Made by a program: the position numbers and the translations under genes. From the NCBI GenBank assembly GCA_025558075.1, contig JAHLKF010000007.1, forward strand, positions 186,001 to 250,000: DNA of 64,000 bases. The letters are read 5' to 3'. Origin of the DNA: Gaertneriomyces semiglobifer (Eukaryota; Chytridiomycota; Chytridiomycetes; Spizellomycetales; Spizellomycetaceae). The notes beneath the pieces were generated by a model. The model did not search any database. It had not been told where the DNA came from and worked only from the letters and a program-made list of their open reading frames with translations. This document shows positions 5,461-43,600 of this stretch, in pieces (position 1 is the first letter of the stretch; every line of letters begins with the position of its first letter).

Positions 5461-7986
5461 TCAGTTCATGTGGGTTTCTCTTCTGAACTTGGGTACATCA
5501 AACGGTAAGCTTGCGGTCCTTGGCAGTAGCGACTTCACGCTAAAGCGCTTCTCCGCCTTCTTCGGGTTCCCGTCGTTTTCCCGCATTTCTTCCTTCTCGG
5601 GTACTTCAAACTGCAAGCTTGTCGACCTTCGCAGTAGCGATTTTACGCTAAAGCGCTTCTCCGCCTTCTTCGGGTTTTTGTCGTTTTCCTGCTCGGGTAC
5701 TTCAAACTGCAAGCTTGTGGACCTTCGCAGTAGCGACTTCACGCTAAAGCGCTTCTCCGCCTTCTTCAGGTTCCCGTCGTCTTCCTGCTCGGGTACTTCA
5801 AACTGCAAGCTTGTAGTCCTTCGCAGAAGCGATTTCATGCTAAAGCGCTCCTCCGCCTTATTTGAACCGTTCCCGCCGTTTTTGCTATCTTCCTTCTCGA
5901 CTTCCTCGAGGATGTCTCTATGTACAACAGGCACAATATGTTCAACTTTGTCCACATTTGGTAAAAATGAGTTTATGGTCAGCAAGCCGTCTTCCACACC
6001 GATCCCACCACGTAGGGCATAACCTTCAGGGTGCACATCCTGAGCGATAGTGTCCGCATCTGCGAACAAGTGCTCAACCCACGCACCGATATTGCGCGTG
6101 GAAGCCTTTGCCGCCTTGGTGACGAAAATCGCCTGAAACACATGCGGTTGGTCACGGTAAAGTTCATGACGTAGCAAGCCGCTCTCAAGCATGTGTGGGT
6201 TAGCCTTGGCTAGGCGTTGAGCATAAAGAAGTCCTTCGTCGCGGATCATTTCTGCATCACCGTTGGTAATGAGACAAGGCGGCATTCCATGCGCATCCGC
6301 GTACAGAGGTGAAGCCAAAGGATGAAGGGCCAACCCAAAAATTTTAGGCTCGATTTCTGGATCCATCACTCGTCCTTCCGAAGAGACTCGAAAGCGTCCA
6401 TCAGTCGCGGGGATACGCCGCAGGTCAACCACAATGTCTCTCGTGACTTCCGCAGCCTTCTGATGCAACATGAGAGACAATGGCCTGCCGATCCCGATCA
6501 GGTCCTCCAAATTGCGCTCCTCGTACTCTATCTCCAAATCGCCCTCATCCCGCGCAGAGCCGGCTCTCGCTTGTGTGTCGAAAACGTCACGATTTCTAGC
6601 GTTTGGCCCGAAGCCGCAAAGGTAAGAATACACGGGATTGACGGGATCTTCAACCTTTTCGCCTTCAAACATTGTTGCAAGCATGCTCTCTGGGCGTCCT
6701 GGTAGGATATCAGAATGATAGTTGTCCAACCATGATTGGGAAGAGCAGGTCATATCGACGAATGGTGAGATCAAGACATTACCGCGGACGTGCTTGAACA
6801 TCATCTCTCCATTCGCGTCTCGAAGAAAATCTTTGAGGTAAACACAGAATGCAGCTGAGATGGCTCCGCCTGCGGAATCACCAATGAGAATAATGTTGGA
6901 GGGGTCAACGGCTTCGTGCATTGGAAACTTGTCGAGTTTAGCCAACGCAGGATGGTCGGGTTGAGTGAGATACAGGTAGGCAGCGAACACATCATGTATC
7001 GGAGCAGGGAAAGTGGCCTCCGGCGCCAGACGGTAATTCAAAACTATTGGGGCACGTTAATTCAGCTGTGAAAGGTAATACACAATACCGCCGCGACATA
7101 CCAAAGACTTTTGCGCGACACCTTTTCGCAAGGCGATAGGTGATCAATCTGTGCGTTTTGTGGCTACCCATCTATGGAAAGTCAATGCCCTCTTTAATAA
7201 AAATCGCACCGAAAGAGAATGGGGAACTGCTCTTACGTACAATATATGCTCCACCATGGACATACAGCACGACACGCTCAGTCTTAGCTGGAGCAGTCTT
7301 GTTTTTCTTGTTCTTCCACTCCATCCATTCACCATTCTAGAGATATGTTTCAGGATATGGTTGCCAAACACTACAATCGGCTTGATGAAAGAACATACCA
7401 ACGTGTACACATCCTCTCCTTCTGCTTCCTCGGGAACAATGAATCCCTTCGGATGCGGCCTGGCCGACCTTTCATATTGTAGCAACAGATTTCTATCAAT
7501 TTGGAACTTGAACGGAGTGATCTTGGCCGGTCCGGGGAGAGGAGTTGGGTACTCCATCTGCGACCGCGCGCGTGCGACACTATGTCCTCGATATTCAACG
7601 TTGGCTTTGATGACTTTAACGAGAATATTCATGGCAGGAGACCAGGTCGGCCGGCGACCCGGGCATGAAGGTGACATTGCATTGGCCATGGCCTAATTGC
7701 CCGTGGGCATGAGCTTTTCTCCGCATGATGCATGGCAGAACTAGTTCCTTACCGTGAGTGTGGTGGCGCTCAGACCTGCACGGTATGAGATCACGTTCTG
7801 ACGACGACAGGTGGCTTTGAGAACCTCCACTAAGGCGACGCAGAGATGTCAGCTCATTTCGAGACTAACCACAACCAACGAGAGGCACTTACGATCATCG
7901 CCATGTTTTTGGCCTTTGTCAACGTGGACGATCTCAACATCATCTGCGGAGTCGTTCAGAGTGGCCTGGCTATCGCTTTTCTTCAT
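5461..7986 (-). CDS. HSL-type alpha/beta hydrolase (fold-3 family) with repeated C-terminal tail
   Basis: Six exons join in frame: 7986-7893, 7829-7753, 7692-7399, 7336-7241, 7171-7102 and 7043-5461. They encode about 737 residues. The catalytic core is that of the hormone-sensitive-lipase/acetyl-esterase family: oxyanion-hole motif HGGAYI, nucleophile motif GDSAGG, an acid within NGDAEMIRDEG, and a His in QPHVFQ. The triad is complete, so this is a probable carboxylic-ester or acylglycerol hydrolase. No signal peptide is visible, which suggests a cytosolic or lipid-droplet location. The last ~130 residues hold four ~30-residue repeats of the form KRFSVKSLLRRSTSLQFEVP, which are basic and rich in phosphorylatable Ser/Thr. 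The start MKKSDSQATL is the first ATG before a normal donor site. The substrate cannot be told from sequence. Confidence 0.85.
5480..5870 (-). repeat. Four coding tandem repeats in the hydrolase tail
   Basis: Four imperfect ~90-bp units encode KRFSVKSLLRRSTSLQFEVP-like blocks. Three carry RRTTS or RRSTS, which fit the R-R-x-S/T basophilic kinase consensus. The last, most C-terminal unit is degenerate (LPRTASLPF) and has lost the Arg pair. Confidence 0.85.
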
Positions 7987-34355: not shown

Positions 34356-37300
34356 CTATTGCTCTGCACGTACATCGGCGTGGTTCGCAACGCCATCTTC
34401 TAGCATTCCTTCAAACTCTGCCATTGAAGGTCCCATCTCAGTTGCAGCATCCTTCATCTCCACAGCCGGCTTGGTACTTCTCACCCAGTCCCAAAACTTG
34501 CCTCTTCTACGGCTCCAAAAGGATTCCCAATAAGCGTCACGCAACAATAGGCCCATTTGCATGACTCTCATTGCTATCCAAATAATTCCTAGCGCCAACA
34601 AGCCAGCTTCAGGCGATATCGGCTCAGCACGCGCTTGCTCAACTAAAACATCTCCTTCTTTGGCCTGACAGACTCCATGATTCTCCAATACACAGTCGCC
34701 AGCGAATTCCGCATTAGCACGAATAAGTGGAGCAAGGCCCCAATATGTGGGATTTACGTACTGTAACCAGGCAATTGCGTCGTAAAACACACTGTCGCCT
34801 TTTTGGATCCAAATGCCGGACGCGATGGCCAACACTGCTTGGGAGAAGAAGGCAACAGATCTAGCCTCTGGCCTTCCCAACGACGTAGAGTATACGAGTG
34901 TAAATAATGTCGTCGTGCAGTTGTAGTAAACTAAAAAGAGCACAAAAACAGTCGCAATTCGGTATGGATCTTCGTTGCATCCGAGGATAAAGTAAGCGGT
35001 GACACAGGCGACAAACGCCTCCATTGTTGCCATTGCACTCTCGAAGAAAATTCGGTGGAAAAAGAAGGCGAGCGGATGAACTGTGCCGTTCGTGGAATCA
35101 AAGTTATATATATCCCGGTCTTCATAATAGTCGAACGAAATGTGAATATTCTTCAGTGCCGGCAACCCTACGCATGCTGTCGAGAAAGGTTAGGGCAATC
35201 ACGTACTTGCTGCAGCCTGTACGCGCAATGTGCTCACCTAAAGCCAAACCTTTGGTCTGCAAGACCAGACTTAAAGTGTCTGTTCCTGGTCGTCGTTGAA
35301 GCAACGCTAACAGCCACACACCGACAACGCAAATAGTAAGCATGTTGAGCTTCCGTTTAACGGGCCGAGCAGTCCACCATCGAGCGTTGATTATCACGAG
35401 TTGTTTCAACGGCCATGGTTTGTTCCTTTGTGTCAAGGTAGCGTTTTTGTTGCATTCGTTTCCAATGGCTGCAGCTGAACCAGTCGGCGAAACACCTAGT
35501 AAATTCACCGGAAGAGCCTCTCCCAGCTCCAGCTTTTCGAGTTTTTCGGATGAGCCTTTTCGTATTCCAAGAAGGGCTCCCGCCATCGTGCTCATGATGT
35601 TCTGGGGCGGGCCCTCCGAAGTCCCTTTCTTGGCGGGCATATGGCGGAGCAAAGTCCGCGTACCTGGCTCGCCTTCCTCTTCTAGACCCAAAAGGCGCAA
35701 CGGCACTGGCAACTTCACAGCCCCTTCCATATTCTCCTCACTTCTAACAGACTGCCGTGCATCACTGTCGGTCGTCTTCTGATGTTTGGACTGGCTTCGG
35801 CTTCGGCCATGATCCCAGTCCACTACAGGCAAATGACGAGAGGTGTAAAACCCGACCGCGTAACTAACATCCGCAGGTCGTATACTACCGGCAACGTCTA
35901 GAATCAGGTCAGCCGGATTGCTCACTTCTTGTTGGCTTAACCCTTGTGTAGAGTCAGGATCGCTTCCCTCATCACTTCTCACGTCATCATAACTGCCTAC
36001 ACCTTTCGTGGTTGCATGAGTTAACGCCATCATCTTATCCCTTAACTTGAGAAAATGTTCATGAGACTCTCCTGGCGTTCCAGAAAACAACAACCTCCCA
36101 TACACAAGTACGAGAATCTGCGAAAACATTTCGAACATCTCTGTGCGCGGCTGGTGAATGGAGCAAATTACGGTATACCCTTGCGATGCCATCTGAGCCA
36201 TGGCTTTTCCCACGTCTAAGGAGCTCTTCGCGTCCAAGCCGCTAGTGGGCTCATCCAGAAACAAAACACTGGGCCGGCGAAGAAGGGCAACAGCGATGCT
36301 AAGTCGACGGCGTTGCCCACCGGAAATCCCACCTGCGTTGTTCTCCGGGCGTTGAATCAAGACATCGGCACACACAGACAGGTTCAGCATTTGCAAAATA
36401 CCGTTGACCCGACGAACTTTCTCCGTACGCCTCATGTCTGCTGGTAGCTGCGGCGCAATCACGTTACTGCCCGCTCTTGTGGTGGGAAAACCAACAACTC
36501 CCTTTTACCTCTAGCATTGCGTTGTACATCATCACTTCCCGAACGGTTAATCCGTAATACGGTGCATCGTGTTGTGCAACAAATCCGGTAATGTTACGGA
36601 ACTTGGAAGCACTGAGGCGAGAAAGAGGTGCGCCTCCGAAGAAAATGCGTTGTTGACTCCGGTTCGCCTTAATCCTTCGATTCAACTATGGAAATAAACG
36701 TGTCAGCACCAGGATTAATACGAGGAACTGAAACAATGTCTACTAACAAGTGATAACAGAGTTGTTTTTCCTGCTCCGCTACTTCCCATAATAGCCGTCA
36801 CGGTCCCGGGCTGGCACACAAAGTTGACCCCATCAATCAGTCTCTTTCCGTGAGGCGCGTCCCCAGCTCGGTATGTTAATTCCCGGCATTCTACCGTAAC
36901 CGGTACGGGCTTCTCTTCAGTTAACAAATTCATCGCGCTCGCAGAGTGGTCGGATCCCGAATTTTTGTGAGAGTGTTTCCCATCGACTTTCTGCTGTAAG
37001 TTCTTCAGTGCGAGTGAGAGATCCGCTTCCTGGCGTTCAACGAGGGAGAAAAGTCGAGGCATTACATGGCGCAGATGGACCGAATAGAGGAGGAGATAGA
37101 ACTGAGTGCCCAGAACGCATCCTATGATGGCAAAAGATGTGATCAACACAGACAAGGAGAGAGCGGAATCATTTTGCCGTATAAGGGCAATGTCTTCAGC
37201 AGATAGACGGGGTGCGTACTGGTACCCAATCTCATCCCACGCATCGCACTCCGTGGCGCGTGGGTGGTTGGGCGCAAGGTGTGGTGAATACTCAGCAGGT

Positions 37301-39000
37301 GTGGGTACGCCATTAGAATTGGGGAAAACCTGGACTGGAAAACGATCTGAATTGCTCAGGACGGGTGACCAGTCGCCTAAGGAGGCGGCATCCAGTGATG
37401 ATTCGGTTACAAATGTGCGCAAGTAACCCCGAAAGGCGATAGTCCCTTGCTGAAGGATCGCTAACGCTCGGGCAATTAGTGACGGCACGTTTGCGGCGAG
37501 GCAAAGGGACTACCTACCATTCTCAGGCATGCGAAATATGTAACTTAAATCCGTAGTGTGGCACGCTAGATTGCCGCACACGTCACCCATGGCGTCATCC
37601 TGACCGCCCATCCAAGGTGCCTCCCACAAGTAACTCCAAAGAAGAGCTGTGCTACCCTGCAGAGAGTGGCGTTGTGGGCAAAGGAATAACCAATCCGTTG
37701 TCATCCGCGTGAGATATGGTTTGCGGTCTTCCATAAGACCTCCTTGGTCTGTGTCGTAGACTTCTCGTATCTTACGATGGTGCGGGGTAAGCAAGCCTTC
37801 ACTGTTAAGGGAACAGCGTCAGGGGATGTCAGTGACCCAGAAGTTCTAAAAAGAAATTCGAACATACAGAGCAACGTTGAATGTGGAGAAAGCAATTGCA
37901 CCGGGATTGGCTTGATTTATGAACAATGATGTTTCGTTCGACGTGCCACCGATCTGAGATAATTGCGTTTAGCATTCCGAGCACGGGAATTTCAAAGCAG
38001 AGATATTTACCATCACTGACGTTCCATACAGTACGTCAGCCTCTTTGAGTAGCTCAAAAGGGTTGTCGAGTATATCCAGTCCATCTACGACTGGAAGGAA
38101 CGTTCGATAAACCAGCTGGGAAATCTTGTCTTCGTGGTCCCCATTCCTTGCATTCAGAATTTGACGAGCGCCTTTTGCCTGCATGCAAGTTTTCGTTCGG
38201 CACCCGAGTCTCAAAGCCATTTCGGATGCCTTTTGTTGACTCTGAGTTGGAGAACTGAGTCTGACAGCGGGCGGTGACATGAGAACCATCCGTTTCGCTA
38301 TGTCCCGCGTAGACGAATGCGCAAGATGGATAATTGCTGACTGGGCTCCTGCAGATTGGCCTAGTAATGTTATTCGCGACGGATCGCCACCAAAGGCTTG
38401 AATGTTATTCGCAACCCATTGTAGTGCAAGACGTTGGTCTAAGATGCCGTAATTGGCTGGCCCGGTTTGGCTGTCATCCAATTCACTTAAATCGAGGTAA
38501 CCAAAAACTGACAGCCTGTAGTTGAAGCTGACGACGATAGCGCCCAAAGTCCGTGATAAGTCCGCACCATCATATGAAGCAAGGCTTGCGCTCCCAGTGT
38601 CAAACGATCCGCCATGGATAAAAATCAAAACGGGCAGAGAAGGCGTTGCAAAATTGGCAGAATCCTCTATAGGCGTCCAAATATTTAAGTAAAGGCAATC
38701 CTCGGATATTGTTTCTGGGCACAGGATGGTCTGGCACACCTGGTAACAACTAGGACCGACGCTGGTTGCTGAAATAGTGGTCGCAGATATCGGTGCAATG
38801 GTTGGTGCCTCCCAACGAGCGGCTTCTGCGTAACGGATGCCCACAAATTGAAATGTCCCATGTTCGTTGGCTCGGCCAGCTATTCTTCCAATGGTAGTGT
38901 CTACTTCGGCGATATCACCAGGCGCTGCCCCCAGCGTAGAGGCTATCAAAATACAGGCATATAATACCTGCACTCGCAATAATGCTGTTAAGCTGATCAT
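34356..39000 (-). CDS. Carboxylesterase-ABCG transporter fusion
   Basis: Seven exons (39000-38011, 37953-37868, 37801-37518, 37460-36748, 36685-36509, 36447-35238, 35176-34356) fit in phase and encode 1,426 residues. Residues 1-~25 are a signal peptide. Residues to ~538 form a complete type-B carboxylesterase: oxyanion motif IFIHGGSF, nucleophile LLGQSAGA, acid in GGTSNETSLF, and His in NLACHTTDLSYIF. A membrane segment follows (SVLITSFAIIGCVLGTQFYLLL, about 555-580). The ABCG nucleotide-binding domain has Walker A GSSGAGKTT, signature ISGGQRRR and Walker B VLFLDEPTSGLD. Then come the ABCG2-type membrane domain and a short cytosolic tail. The esterase end, membrane segment and Walker A share exon 4 without a stop, so this is one gene. 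Topology is coherent: esterase outside, ATPase inside. The insert after the NBD (about 880-1050) is polar and unusually long. Confidence 0.85.
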
Positions 39001-39351: not shown

Positions 39352-40329
39352 ATGCCTCATAGTATACCTGTGCACCATGCAGAGACGCTAAACCCTTTGA
39401 ATCCTCCCCATCGCACTGCCATTCGGCTTCCAGCACCATGCAGAGTCTCAATCAAAGTTAATGGTCAGTATCAACTAGCAGCACAACTGTGTTACTGCAG
39501 CGCATGCATTCATCTTGCAGCATCACGATCAGATCCGTTAGACCACGAGGTTCCTGGCATCTTGCATAAAGCACCACAGCCAACGACGAACTGTGCGATT
39601 CTGGTATCCGGCGCTGGTGGCGGTGTTAGCGGGCCAATGGGCATGTACGTTTCCCTTGCTGCGCGATTGGCGCAAGTTGGAGTGCATGCCCTGCGTCTTG
39701 ACTACCGCGAACCAGCGCGGAGCCGCTATTGCGTTCCGGATGTCATTGCGGCTATTGAATGGATGATGAAAACCGAGGGTTGCACGAACTTTACGCTGGC
39801 TGGATGGAGCTATGGGGGAGCACCTGTTTTCACCGTAGGCGCTAAGCTCAAGGAGAGGATTAAAGGAGTTGCCACAGTAGCGAGTCAGGTGATTGTCCTT
39901 CGACAGTGCCAATGTTTACCTGCTCAGGTGTTCAACATGCATTGTCGATAGACAGCAGAGACTCAGGGAATAAAAGAACTGGCCCCCGTGCCAATTCTTC
40001 TCATGCATGGCACTGGCGACACATGCTTGTAAGTAAGATATCCATTTTATATGGTTACGTAACTGATTATTTGCAGGAGTTCGCGCTGTTCAGAGACATT
40101 ATATCAGATGTATGGAGATAAGTCTAACAGCGACCTGGTGCTATTTCCCGGTGATGACCATGGTTTGAGTAAAAATTCCGCTGCGGCAGAGAATAAGCTG
40201 TTTGCTTTCTTTTGCCGCGTTTTGGGCGTCTCTGCCAACAACGATGGAGGACAAAGTTTGATTCACGGCGCAAAGGAAGGTAGACGGGTTATGGCGGAAG
40301 GTCACGACATGGAAAATGAGAGCTTCTGA
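39352..40329 (+). CDS. Alpha/beta hydrolase (dienelactone-hydrolase-like)
   Basis: Three exons (39352-39888, 39952-40028, 40077-40329; introns 63 and 48 nt) give 288 residues. The fold is visible from ILVSGAGGGVSGPM (first beta strand and oxyanion loop), LRLDYREP, nucleophile elbow LAGWSYGGAP, acid in LLMHGTGDTC and His in FPGDDHGL. The triad Ser/Asp/His is complete. There is no signal peptide, so a cytosolic serine hydrolase acting on a small ester or lactone is likely; the substrate is unknown. It is divergent from the esterase-ABCG gene and convergent with the second ABCG gene. ATG at 39352 was chosen as the first in frame after the divergent promoter; TTG-initiated extensions upstream were ignored. 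Confidence 0.8.
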
Positions 40330-40437: not shown

Positions 40438-42869
40438 CTATACTCTCTCTGCTAAAATAAATTGGTGCGCATCCGGGTGGTTCTTCTCAGTGTAAGCCAA
40501 GCAAACACCTGATAAAACAATGCCCAGCCGCATATAGCAGCGATGCACACGCCCCTCGAGGGTGTTTCCTGAGAAAGCATTAAGTGGTGCCCGTGAGGTT
40601 GCAAGTGGAGTACTTCTCACCAAACTGAATGCCTCAACCACTTCTTCTCCGGACGGTTTACAGAAGGCGCCTGTTCCCCCGCTGCAATCAAATGTTAGTC
40701 CCTTGAATTCATTAATCATGAATCCGCCGTACGCATATCGAACGATGGAAAGCCTGTGTACATTGGTTAGACGAGATTGTTGAAGTTATTACGACAGCTT
40801 ACCATTGGATCCATCTCAAAATGGGTGTCACGCTCGAAATATTACCAAAATTTCCGCCAAAGATGACAAAGACGACCACAACCAACGGTCCAAACACTTG
40901 AGCCATCTGTACATTGGGAGCCGCAGCTCCAATGATCATACCCAGAGATTGCGATGCAAATACAACCACTTGCGTATCGGCAAAGTAGTAGAGAAACCGC
41001 GCAAAGCTGTGATTCAAACCAATGAGCCAGTACACTGGTATGCTAAAACATGCCGATGCGATAGCAGCAGTTGGCCACTGAGAAATCGCCTTGGCAGCGT
41101 AGGCGGTAGATACGCGATACATGCCTGCCGCTCGCTCACGGAGAATCATGCGACGCTCCAAAGGGAATACCGTGATGATTGGTTGCAGAAACGAGAATAC
41201 CTGAACACAGGTCCGGTCAAGTGATGTTCTCATCAGCAAGCAAGATCCTTGTGTATACCTGATTGATACATATGAAGAACAACACTCCAACTCGATTTTG
41301 CACGCCAGCGGCATCCAGGTCGATCCGGAAGAAAACAAACCCCAAGAGAAGGAAGAGCAAGAGTTGTTGGAAAATGTGCGCAATGATTATTGTTCTTCCA
41401 CGCATCACGCTCTGAGTTCTTTAAATGTTACACTTTTCCGTCGACAGATATGTGATGTGGGGTCTCACCTTGAAGTTGCGCTGGAGCAAAATACCAAGTT
41501 CATAAAAGTAAGGAACTCCAAATCTCTCCATTTCAGATGACTGAGCTTGCCTTTCCAAACTCAACCGATGCCGAGCCACTACACTTTTGCCCAGGCGTCT
41601 TTGTTGCTCCATAACTTCGGAAACCAATTTATCGTCTATTGGCGGTACGTATTTTGATTGCAACGCTGGCCAGTTCTCGATGAAGCGTTCAACGTTCCTC
41701 TCGGTCTCCGGGTTCTTGGGATCCACCTGAAGGATGTCGAGGAAGAAGTCTGCGGGGTTTGTGTGCATTGGTATGTGAAACCCCTGACTCTCAAAAAGCT
41801 GTAATGCCTCATTTGGTGGACCAAACCAGACGTTTTTGCCTTGCGCCATCAATCCCACGACGTCTAACAAGTCCAGGATCGTTTCACGTGGCATATGTAT
41901 AGTCATAATGAGCGTCTTTCCGGTCTTCTTGGCATATCTTTTCAATAGTGCAATCAGATTTTGCGATGTTGCGGCATCCAATCCCTTTTTAACGCCGTTT
42001 TACGGCCTGTGTTTAGTAAGGGTACCATACGACGCAATTGTGCCGGACACTACCGTAGTTGGTTCGTCTAAGAACAACAATCCGGGGTCCGCAACTAGCT
42101 CAATACCGATAGAGACACGTTTCTTTTCGCCACCAGATATTCCACCAACAGACGGATTGCCGATTCTGGAATGAGCAATGTGGGAGAGACCAAGGGCCTC
42201 CAACGCAAGGCTAACCCTCTGCAACTTCTGCGCCTTTGAGAATTGAGAGTTAGGCAGTCGCAGCAGAGCCGCAGTCTCTAGGGTCTCTCGCACTGTCAGG
42301 TTCTCGTACAACAGATCCTCTTGCTCCACGTAACCAATTTTTTTCTTCCACGTCCGTCTCTCGCGAATTTTCCCATTCTGAAGGATAATTCCGGAAGGCT
42401 TTCCTGTTGGCACTCGCCCAGCCAAGATATTTAGCAATGTCGTTTTGCCGGCGCCACTTCCTCCCATTATTGCGACGATTTCTCCAGGTTTGGCGATACC
42501 GGAGACACCGTGCAAGATTTCCCTGGTGGTTCTCCGTTTCCCACGACCCATTTCAATTTCGTATCGGACGTCTTGCCATTGGAGAAGCACATGGTCGTCA
42601 TCATATGGTACTGCTTCAGCCGTGGTTTGCTCGATATCATTCGGGATTGAAGGTCCCGATGCACCGTTGGCAGGTATATCAATGGCAACCTCCTCCCCGT
42701 CTTCGAGGACATCGGGTGACTTTTCGGGGAGTTCATTACCGAGAGCTTCAAAATTGGCCGAATTATCGGCTACAGGAATGTTAGGGGTGACTCGAGCGGA
42801 TGAGAACAGAGGTGGTGCGCTTGATGGAACCCGGACCATCTCCTGGTGGTTGCTGTTTGCATTCTGCAT
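40438..42869 (-). CDS. ABCG-family half-transporter
   Basis: A conventional NBD-TMD half-transporter of the ABCG/White type. Exon 1 is 42869-42054 and exon 2 starts at 41984. Three or more further exons reach about 40438; their exact limits are approximate. Motifs: Walker A GGSGAGKTT, signature GGISGGEKKR and Walker B LLFLDEPTT, with GLD restored across the intron. Membrane helices follow (IIIAHIFQQLLLFLLLGFVFF, GPLVVVVFVIFGG). The C-terminal loop has Cys residues (TFDCSGGTGAFCKPSGEE), as in the last extracellular loop of the family. The N-terminal ~90 residues are acidic and disordered. Such half-transporters dimerise to export lipids, sterols or drugs. The substrate is unknown. It lies tail-to-tail with the alpha/beta hydrolase. 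No esterase domain is present here, unlike the neighbouring fusion. Confidence 0.85.
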
Positions 42870-43600
42870 ACTGCTTCCTTCGGCGCCGAGGCACTGTGAA
42901 AGGTAAGAGGCTAACGGGAGCTCGAGTTGTTTGAGGAACGATTGTTGGAGACACAATGATAAAACGGAAATCCATGGGAAAATTGCATGCGGACAGGAAG
43001 ATCGTTGCGTGAAATACTGTATTAACAAACACAGGGTTCGCCTTCAGATCGAAAGGTGCATCTGATTTATGGGAACTCGGGTCAACGCAAAGCCTACTTA
43101 TACGTGATCCGATGACATATTTTCTCACTCGCTTCCAGTCTTTTTGCCATAATGATGACCCACAGCGTGGACATGCCACTTGAATACTGTACGTTCAATC
43201 CGAGGCAGCGGTTGTGACGAGCAGGACATTGTCGTCCTAGTATATATATAAAGCGGGGCAAACGGTGGTTTCCCAACATTTCCGTCAAGTTCTCCTCTCA
43301 AGCGACTGCATTTGGATTCGCTACTTCCGAGAGGATGTCGTTACGTCGTTCTGCGGTTTGAGCGATCCGACCTAGAAGCAGCGGGCGCTATGATATATTG
43401 GTTACAGTGATCGCCGGTTCCGATGAGCTGAGAGCGACGCGTATCTTCTTTGCGAGGACTTGCTCATCTTTAGGCCTGGCTTTGATGAAAGTCGTCGCCA
43501 GGACGATCACCAAACCGCCTTCAGCCCAGCCTGATGATCATGCACTCCGGGCATGCAACGATATGTCTCCAAACAAAAACACCCAAATATCCACTTCTGA
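42870..43600. other. Intergenic region with a TATA-like element
   Basis: About 730 bp upstream of the second ABCG gene and downstream of the TPT-DUF3431 gene. A TATATATATAAAG element occurs near 43240. A + strand frame at 43398-43685 has no recognisable similarity. No RNA gene was seen. Confidence 0.35.

Follow-up and report, generated by a model that had tools for sequence, protein, structure and literature searches.

The genome of the chytrid fungus Gaertneriomyces semiglobifer contains two genes in which a type-B carboxylesterase, a single membrane helix and an ABCG-type transporter are fused in one coding frame. One lies in the stretch of DNA analysed here (the window: 64,000 nucleotides of contig JAHLKF010000007.1, assembly GCA_025558075.1, positions 186,001 to 250,000), the other on a different contig, C2. 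The catalytic and ATPase motifs are conserved between the two proteins, and both of their domains group together in phylogenetic trees. Because a distantly related second gene has the same layout, the fusion seems, judged by its sequence, to be a genuine protein that has been maintained, and not an annotation error. We propose that it is an exporter with an esterase tethered at its exit, made as one polypeptide and working as a half-transporter; taken whole, this is the best explanation of the data and, on balance, a probable one.

The window gene consists of seven exons (Table 1). When the splice model was rebuilt by script, it reproduced all of the exon lengths and agreeing phases that an earlier, sequence-only reading of this DNA had put forward: the six introns are all GT..AG (57, 66, 57, 62, 61 and 61 nt), and the spliced frame of 4281 nt including the stop is divisible by three and encodes 1426 amino acids with no internal stops. 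What that reading had placed in the single frame was also recovered, namely an apparent signal peptide (hydropathy only), a full Ser/Glu/His triad, one helix, and an ABCG ATPase and membrane domain. Pfam matches in the protein are COesterase at residues 32-453 (E 1.1e-81; 275.8 bits against a cut-off of 27), ABC_tran at 663-819 (E 1.5e-26, above cut-off) and ABC2_membrane at 1140-1302 (E 9.2e-10), the last being weak at 38.9 bits against a cut-off of 26.9. Exon 4 carries, without a break, the C-terminal motif of the esterase (CDAWDEIGYQYAP), then the helix at residues 553-571 and Walker A at 679-687, as had been claimed. Scored by host codon use, the coding frame was top in six of seven overlapping sub-windows of this exon; in the sub-window from nt 183 another frame was slightly ahead (-0.01 vs -0.07). 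The host table held 8127 codons from eight loci, some of which share a gene that is thus counted twice, and the in-frame scores were the highest, yet mostly near or below zero.

Table 1. Coordinates of the fusion gene in the window, its neighbour, and other loci of the genome discussed in the text
Feature	Position	Strand	Size, basis or remark
Whole esterase-ABCG fusion gene	34356..39000	-	7 exons, 1426 aa; splice model and Pfam
Exon 1	39000-38011	-	990 nt
Exon 2	37953-37868	-	86 nt
Exon 3	37801-37518	-	284 nt
Exon 4 (esterase end, helix and Walker A uninterrupted)	37460-36748	-	713 nt
Exon 5	36685-36509	-	177 nt
Exon 6	36447-35238	-	1210 nt
Exon 7	35176-34356	-	821 nt
Predicted signal peptide, ~residues 1-25	38926..39000	-	hydropathy only
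Type-B carboxylesterase domain	37216..38907	-	Pfam 32-453, alignment to paralogue extends to ~residue 535; three introns inside
Catalytic Ser216 codon (GQSAG)	38353..38355	-	aligned to acetylcholinesterase GESAG Ser; invariant with paralogue
Catalytic Glu337 codon	37933..37935	-	aligned to an acetylcholinesterase Glu; invariant with paralogue
Catalytic His440 codon	37558..37560	-	aligned to paralogue His only; outside the printed PDB alignments
Single membrane helix, residues 553-571, esterase/ATPase boundary	37108..37164	-	hydropathy
Walker A GSSGAGKTT, residues 679-687	36760..36786	-	sequence
ABC_tran ATPase domain, Pfam 663-819	36241..36834	-	two introns inside; signature ISGGQ and Walker B LFLDEP
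ABC2-type membrane domain	34545..35361	-	hydrophobic segments within ~residues 1113-1364; one intron inside; helix count a hydropathy estimate, not exact
ABCG half-transporter gene (context only)	40800..43043	-	upstream of fusion, same orientation; not among COesterase places
N-terminal region of C2 paralogue, with neither a clear signal peptide nor a clear upstream exon	L004 7170-7900	-	
Adp1-like ABCG, EGF-like Cys pattern and helix before ATPase	L140, C4:160500-167500		by eye
Adp1-like ABCG, EGF-like Cys pattern and helix before ATPase	L141, C4:227500-233500		by eye
ABCG with Cys-rich N-terminal stretch (CPEGSKAP) and helix	L145, C32:76500-83500		by eye

A search of the genome (20.86 Mb, 66 contigs) for COesterase identified at least three places: the window gene, one on C2 and one on contig C8. 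The search went exon by exon with the best five candidates scored, and further places are possible. Since the C8 place fits BD-FAE (112.2 bits) better than COesterase (55.4 bits), the clear type-B esterases found are those of the window and C2 genes. On C2, an open frame of 722 residues leads from the esterase through a helix to 'NAIMGPSGAG', at which a 64-nt GT..AG intron splits Walker A; the frame resumes with 'KTSLMNLLTG' and runs on through the ATPase and membrane domain, the last exon being preceded by a 62-nt intron. The esterase, the helix and the first half of Walker A are held in an unbroken exon of 1888 nt, and over its last 900 nt the coding frame was top by codon score in 9/9 sub-windows. 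Counted from the first in-frame ATG, the model encodes 1396 amino acids with the domain order of the window protein: COesterase at 11-432 (E 5.6e-72; 243.8 bits against a cut-off of 27), ABC_tran at 608-764 (E 1.9e-23) and, again weakly, ABC2_membrane at 1091-1302 (E 3.4e-10; 40.3 bits against 26.9). Homologues always encoded as two genes would have spoken against the earlier reading; the one homologue found, that on C2, contradicts this by being fused as well.

With this order repeated in a gene on contig C2, a chance frame or a misassembly becomes very unlikely, and because the junction falls within a single exon in both genes, we reject as a likely reading that neighbouring genes were read as one. 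It also appears highly improbable that the open frame is incidental, with a membrane-anchored esterase and an ABCG half-transporter arising as two products through distinct transcripts or an internal start. Other ABCGs do function without an ectodomain, and the window gene has Met587 and Met630 behind its helix. Against this, the in-frame open junction within one exon has been kept in both genes, and between the helix end and Walker A of the C2 gene the only two Met codons are those of FLMQ in the helix end and NAIMG just before Walker A, so that a separate C2 ABCG would need its start inside the helix. We favour a single transcript spanning esterase and transporter.

Divergence between the two genes is deep. 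Identity is 29% in the esterase and 38% in the ATPase, with 386 of 1280 aligned residues identical over the whole alignment. By alignment columns, no position is shared between the six window introns and the two C2 introns, the closest pair lying seven columns apart near Walker A. S216/E337/H440 and eight esterase cysteines do not differ between the fusions, nor do SGAGKT, ISGGQ and LDEPTSGLD; both proteins also have the H-loop His. A tree of nucleotide-binding domains (NBDs) was built from 18 ABC ATPase rows, all from the G. semiglobifer genome (two from gene models and 16 from open frames, of which three were stitched from two pieces), and covers 25 of 36 ATPase places, the 11 omitted being ABCB/ABCC-like by eye, or weak. 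The two fusions fall together in this tree with support of 96/88, and an ABCB-type row with a long branch, C20, adjoins them at only 80/35. They also fall together (96/92) in an esterase tree that sets them, as the only non-bacterial rows, among 30 bacterial rows; here both are long branches, for which the program warns of a possibly false join, and the row adjoining them is L060 from Sulfidibacter (96/88). As far as sequences can tell, the simplest history would be one fusion, then a duplication and long divergence in which both halves were kept.

The bacterial loci came from a scan that gave at least 544 relatives among at least 595 pattern-matched stretches, of which the best 80 were taken; the tree used 30 of these, picked as every second one down the score ranking of loci with more than 300 aligned residues. 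All 80 loci contain esterase open reading frames and four also contain an ABC ATPase frame, and in none of these best 80 of at least 544 relatives were esterase and ABC ATPase found in the same frame. One apparent joint match, L074, was rejected as two separate genes in a different order. Viral contigs gave 289 pattern matches, with none confirmed.

In the PDB, the esterase part matches type-B carboxylesterases, cholinesterases and p-nitrobenzyl esterase, which the fusion resembles in sequence family, catalytic residues and aligned cysteines; they differ from it in that no ABC transporter by name is among the 60 matches listed in either search. Cysteine pairs 85/102 and 267/272 of the window esterase align to cysteines of acetylcholinesterase 4qww, where we take them to form disulfides. 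The ester hydrolase of the fusion is active-looking, a putative enzyme. A cholinesterase-like domain followed by a helix is also found in neuroligin-type proteins, and the esterase domain could conceivably be a binding or adhesion module of that type, or a cap for folding or dimerisation, with no catalysis in vivo. We consider this unlikely, as Ser, Glu and His are all present in both diverged genes, even though a non-enzymatic ectodomain has a precedent in the EGF repeats of Adp1 (main text of PMC2848647). In the transporter part of both fusions, the ATPase precedes the membrane domain and contains Walker A, signature, Walker B and H-loop; the top PDB relatives are CDR1, a 'Pleiotropic ABC efflux transporter', ABCG25 and ABCG2.

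Several known proteins share parts of this design. Dictyostelium Tag proteins likewise carry a hydrolase and an ABC transporter on one chain, but theirs is a serine protease, not an esterase, and the transporter is of ABCB type, not ABCG. Plant ABCG24 and ABCG28, with Cys-rich ectodomains, and locus L145 of the present genome resemble the fusion in having a helix and then an ABCG behind a Cys-rich N-terminal stretch; unlike the fusion, no esterase is seen in them, and L145 gave no Pfam match in the one open frame scanned. The plan of ectodomain, helix and ABCG is itself already known from Adp1, of all ABCGs that carry an ectodomain the best known. A survey of 27 fungal species that included the chytrids S. 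punctatus and B. dendrobatidis describes Adp1-type proteins (Group VII) as carrying, ahead of the ATPase, a large EGF-type soluble domain followed by a membrane part, and counts six such genes in S. punctatus; the function of Adp1 was still enigmatic at that time, and the word 'esterase' is absent from the survey's main text (Kovalchuk and Driessen 2010, PMC2848647). The rule given by the sequence-only reading, that the cytosolic ATPase comes first in ABCG half-transporters, is, on that text, not general, with Adp1 and its fungal relatives as exceptions, so its interpretation stands for the architecture and falls for the ATPase-first rule. S. cerevisiae Adp1 (Adp1p/YCR011C) is like the fusion in having an N-terminal soluble domain, a membrane part and then a single ABCG ATPase and membrane domain, and unlike it in that the soluble domain has EGF repeats in place of an enzyme (same main text); by Pfam, the ectodomain of both fusion genes is COesterase and not EGF-type.

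The genome has two Adp1-like genes of its own, assigned by eye, in whose ectodomains no EGF match above the Pfam cut-off was found (a piece of L141 reached 22.9 against 65 for EGF_TEN, and the one of two L140 frames that was scanned gave none). The NBD tree, in which yeast Adp1 is not a row, has no supported grouping of the fusions with these two, that fork being open. Since Adp1-type proteins and the EGF-like and Cys-rich ABCGs of this genome share the order of parts, what differs is the kind of ectodomain, and a catalytic esterase in this position, its catalysis being putative, looks new.

The orientation of the protein in the membrane is probably N-out/C-in at the single helix, with the esterase outside and the ATPase in the cytosol. 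The N-terminus of the window protein has a hydrophobic stretch followed by small residues and is signal-peptide-like by hydropathy alone. Within 15 residues of the C2 helix there are one K/R before and five after, which fits N-out/C-in; around the window helix the counts are two before and one after, from which the positive-inside rule gives no direction. N-glycosylation sequons give no direction either, with 2/8 in the window protein and 2/6 in the C2 protein ahead of the helix and the rest behind. By hydropathy, no recognisable signal peptide is present in the first exon of the C2 model, and no upstream exon encoding one was found within 900 nt, allowing one intron of 45-110 nt (eight combinations, best hydropathy 0.68). 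All ATGs upstream of the gene in locus L004 were examined and include two weak hydrophobic starts, with values of 2.03 and 1.78 compared with 2.48 in the window gene, neither of them among the eight combinations. The C2 model may lack its first exon, or its protein may be sorted by other means.

ABCG half-transporters function as dimers, use ATP on the cytosolic side and are for the most part exporters of hydrophobic molecules. In the mechanism that we propose for the fusion, a type-B (cholinesterase-like) ester hydrolase would enter the secretory pathway by means of its signal peptide. The single helix would anchor it with its N-terminus outside and C-terminus inside, leaving the ABCG ATPase in the cytosol, followed by the ABCG membrane domain. 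With one ATPase and one membrane domain, the protein would be a half-transporter and should dimerise; the neighbouring ABCG gene (Table 1) is a candidate for the partner by position only. The pump would bring a hydrophobic substrate, an ester or an acyl molecule, to the outer side of the membrane, where the tethered esterase, held over the exit, would cleave it. Hydrolysis at that point could prevent return of the substrate and make export one-way, or could free an active product. The esterase and pump activities may be coupled, as their tethering suggests.

The reverse direction, an import in which an ester is split outside by the esterase and the resulting acid or alcohol is taken in by the transporter, seems improbable to us. 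Most characterised ABCGs are exporters, and the fusion NBDs are not grouped with the PDR-type NBDs of the genome in the NBD tree, its deep forks being open. In favour of uptake, yeast requires the ABCGs Pdr11p and Aus1p for sterol uptake (PMC2848647, main text), so that ABCG-dependent uptake does exist in fungi. Of the two functions offered by the earlier reading, we infer that processing at export ranks above hydrolysis with uptake.

More tentatively, the two genes may point to a new class of ABC exporter that bears an active esterase of its own at the exit, combining transport and processing in one protein. Both clear type-B esterases were found here only in fused form, suggesting an export-and-cleave pathway special to the lineage, although we hold this wider proposal to be doubtful. 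If true, transport and processing would be united here in a single eukaryotic polypeptide, as they are in the protease examples. An enzyme as ectodomain would also offer a biochemical handle on the role of ABCG ectodomains, as the preferred ester could hint at the transported molecule.

Regarding genomic context, an alpha/beta hydrolase gene (Abhydrolase_1, E 2.1e-07 in its first open frame; 39352-40329, + strand) stands between the fusion gene, to which it is head-to-head, and the ordinary ABCG half-transporter gene. On C2, the fusion is the only one of the 25 ABC2_membrane matches listed for the genome. Chitin synthase (four places, five matches) and IFT46 (two places, five matches) were detected in this genome and in 0/14 control genomes, which fits a flagellated (zoosporic) fungus. 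Elsewhere in the window, a BD-FAE match of 28.5 bits (E 8.9e-6) lies at 6832-7047 on the - strand (C7:192832-193047).
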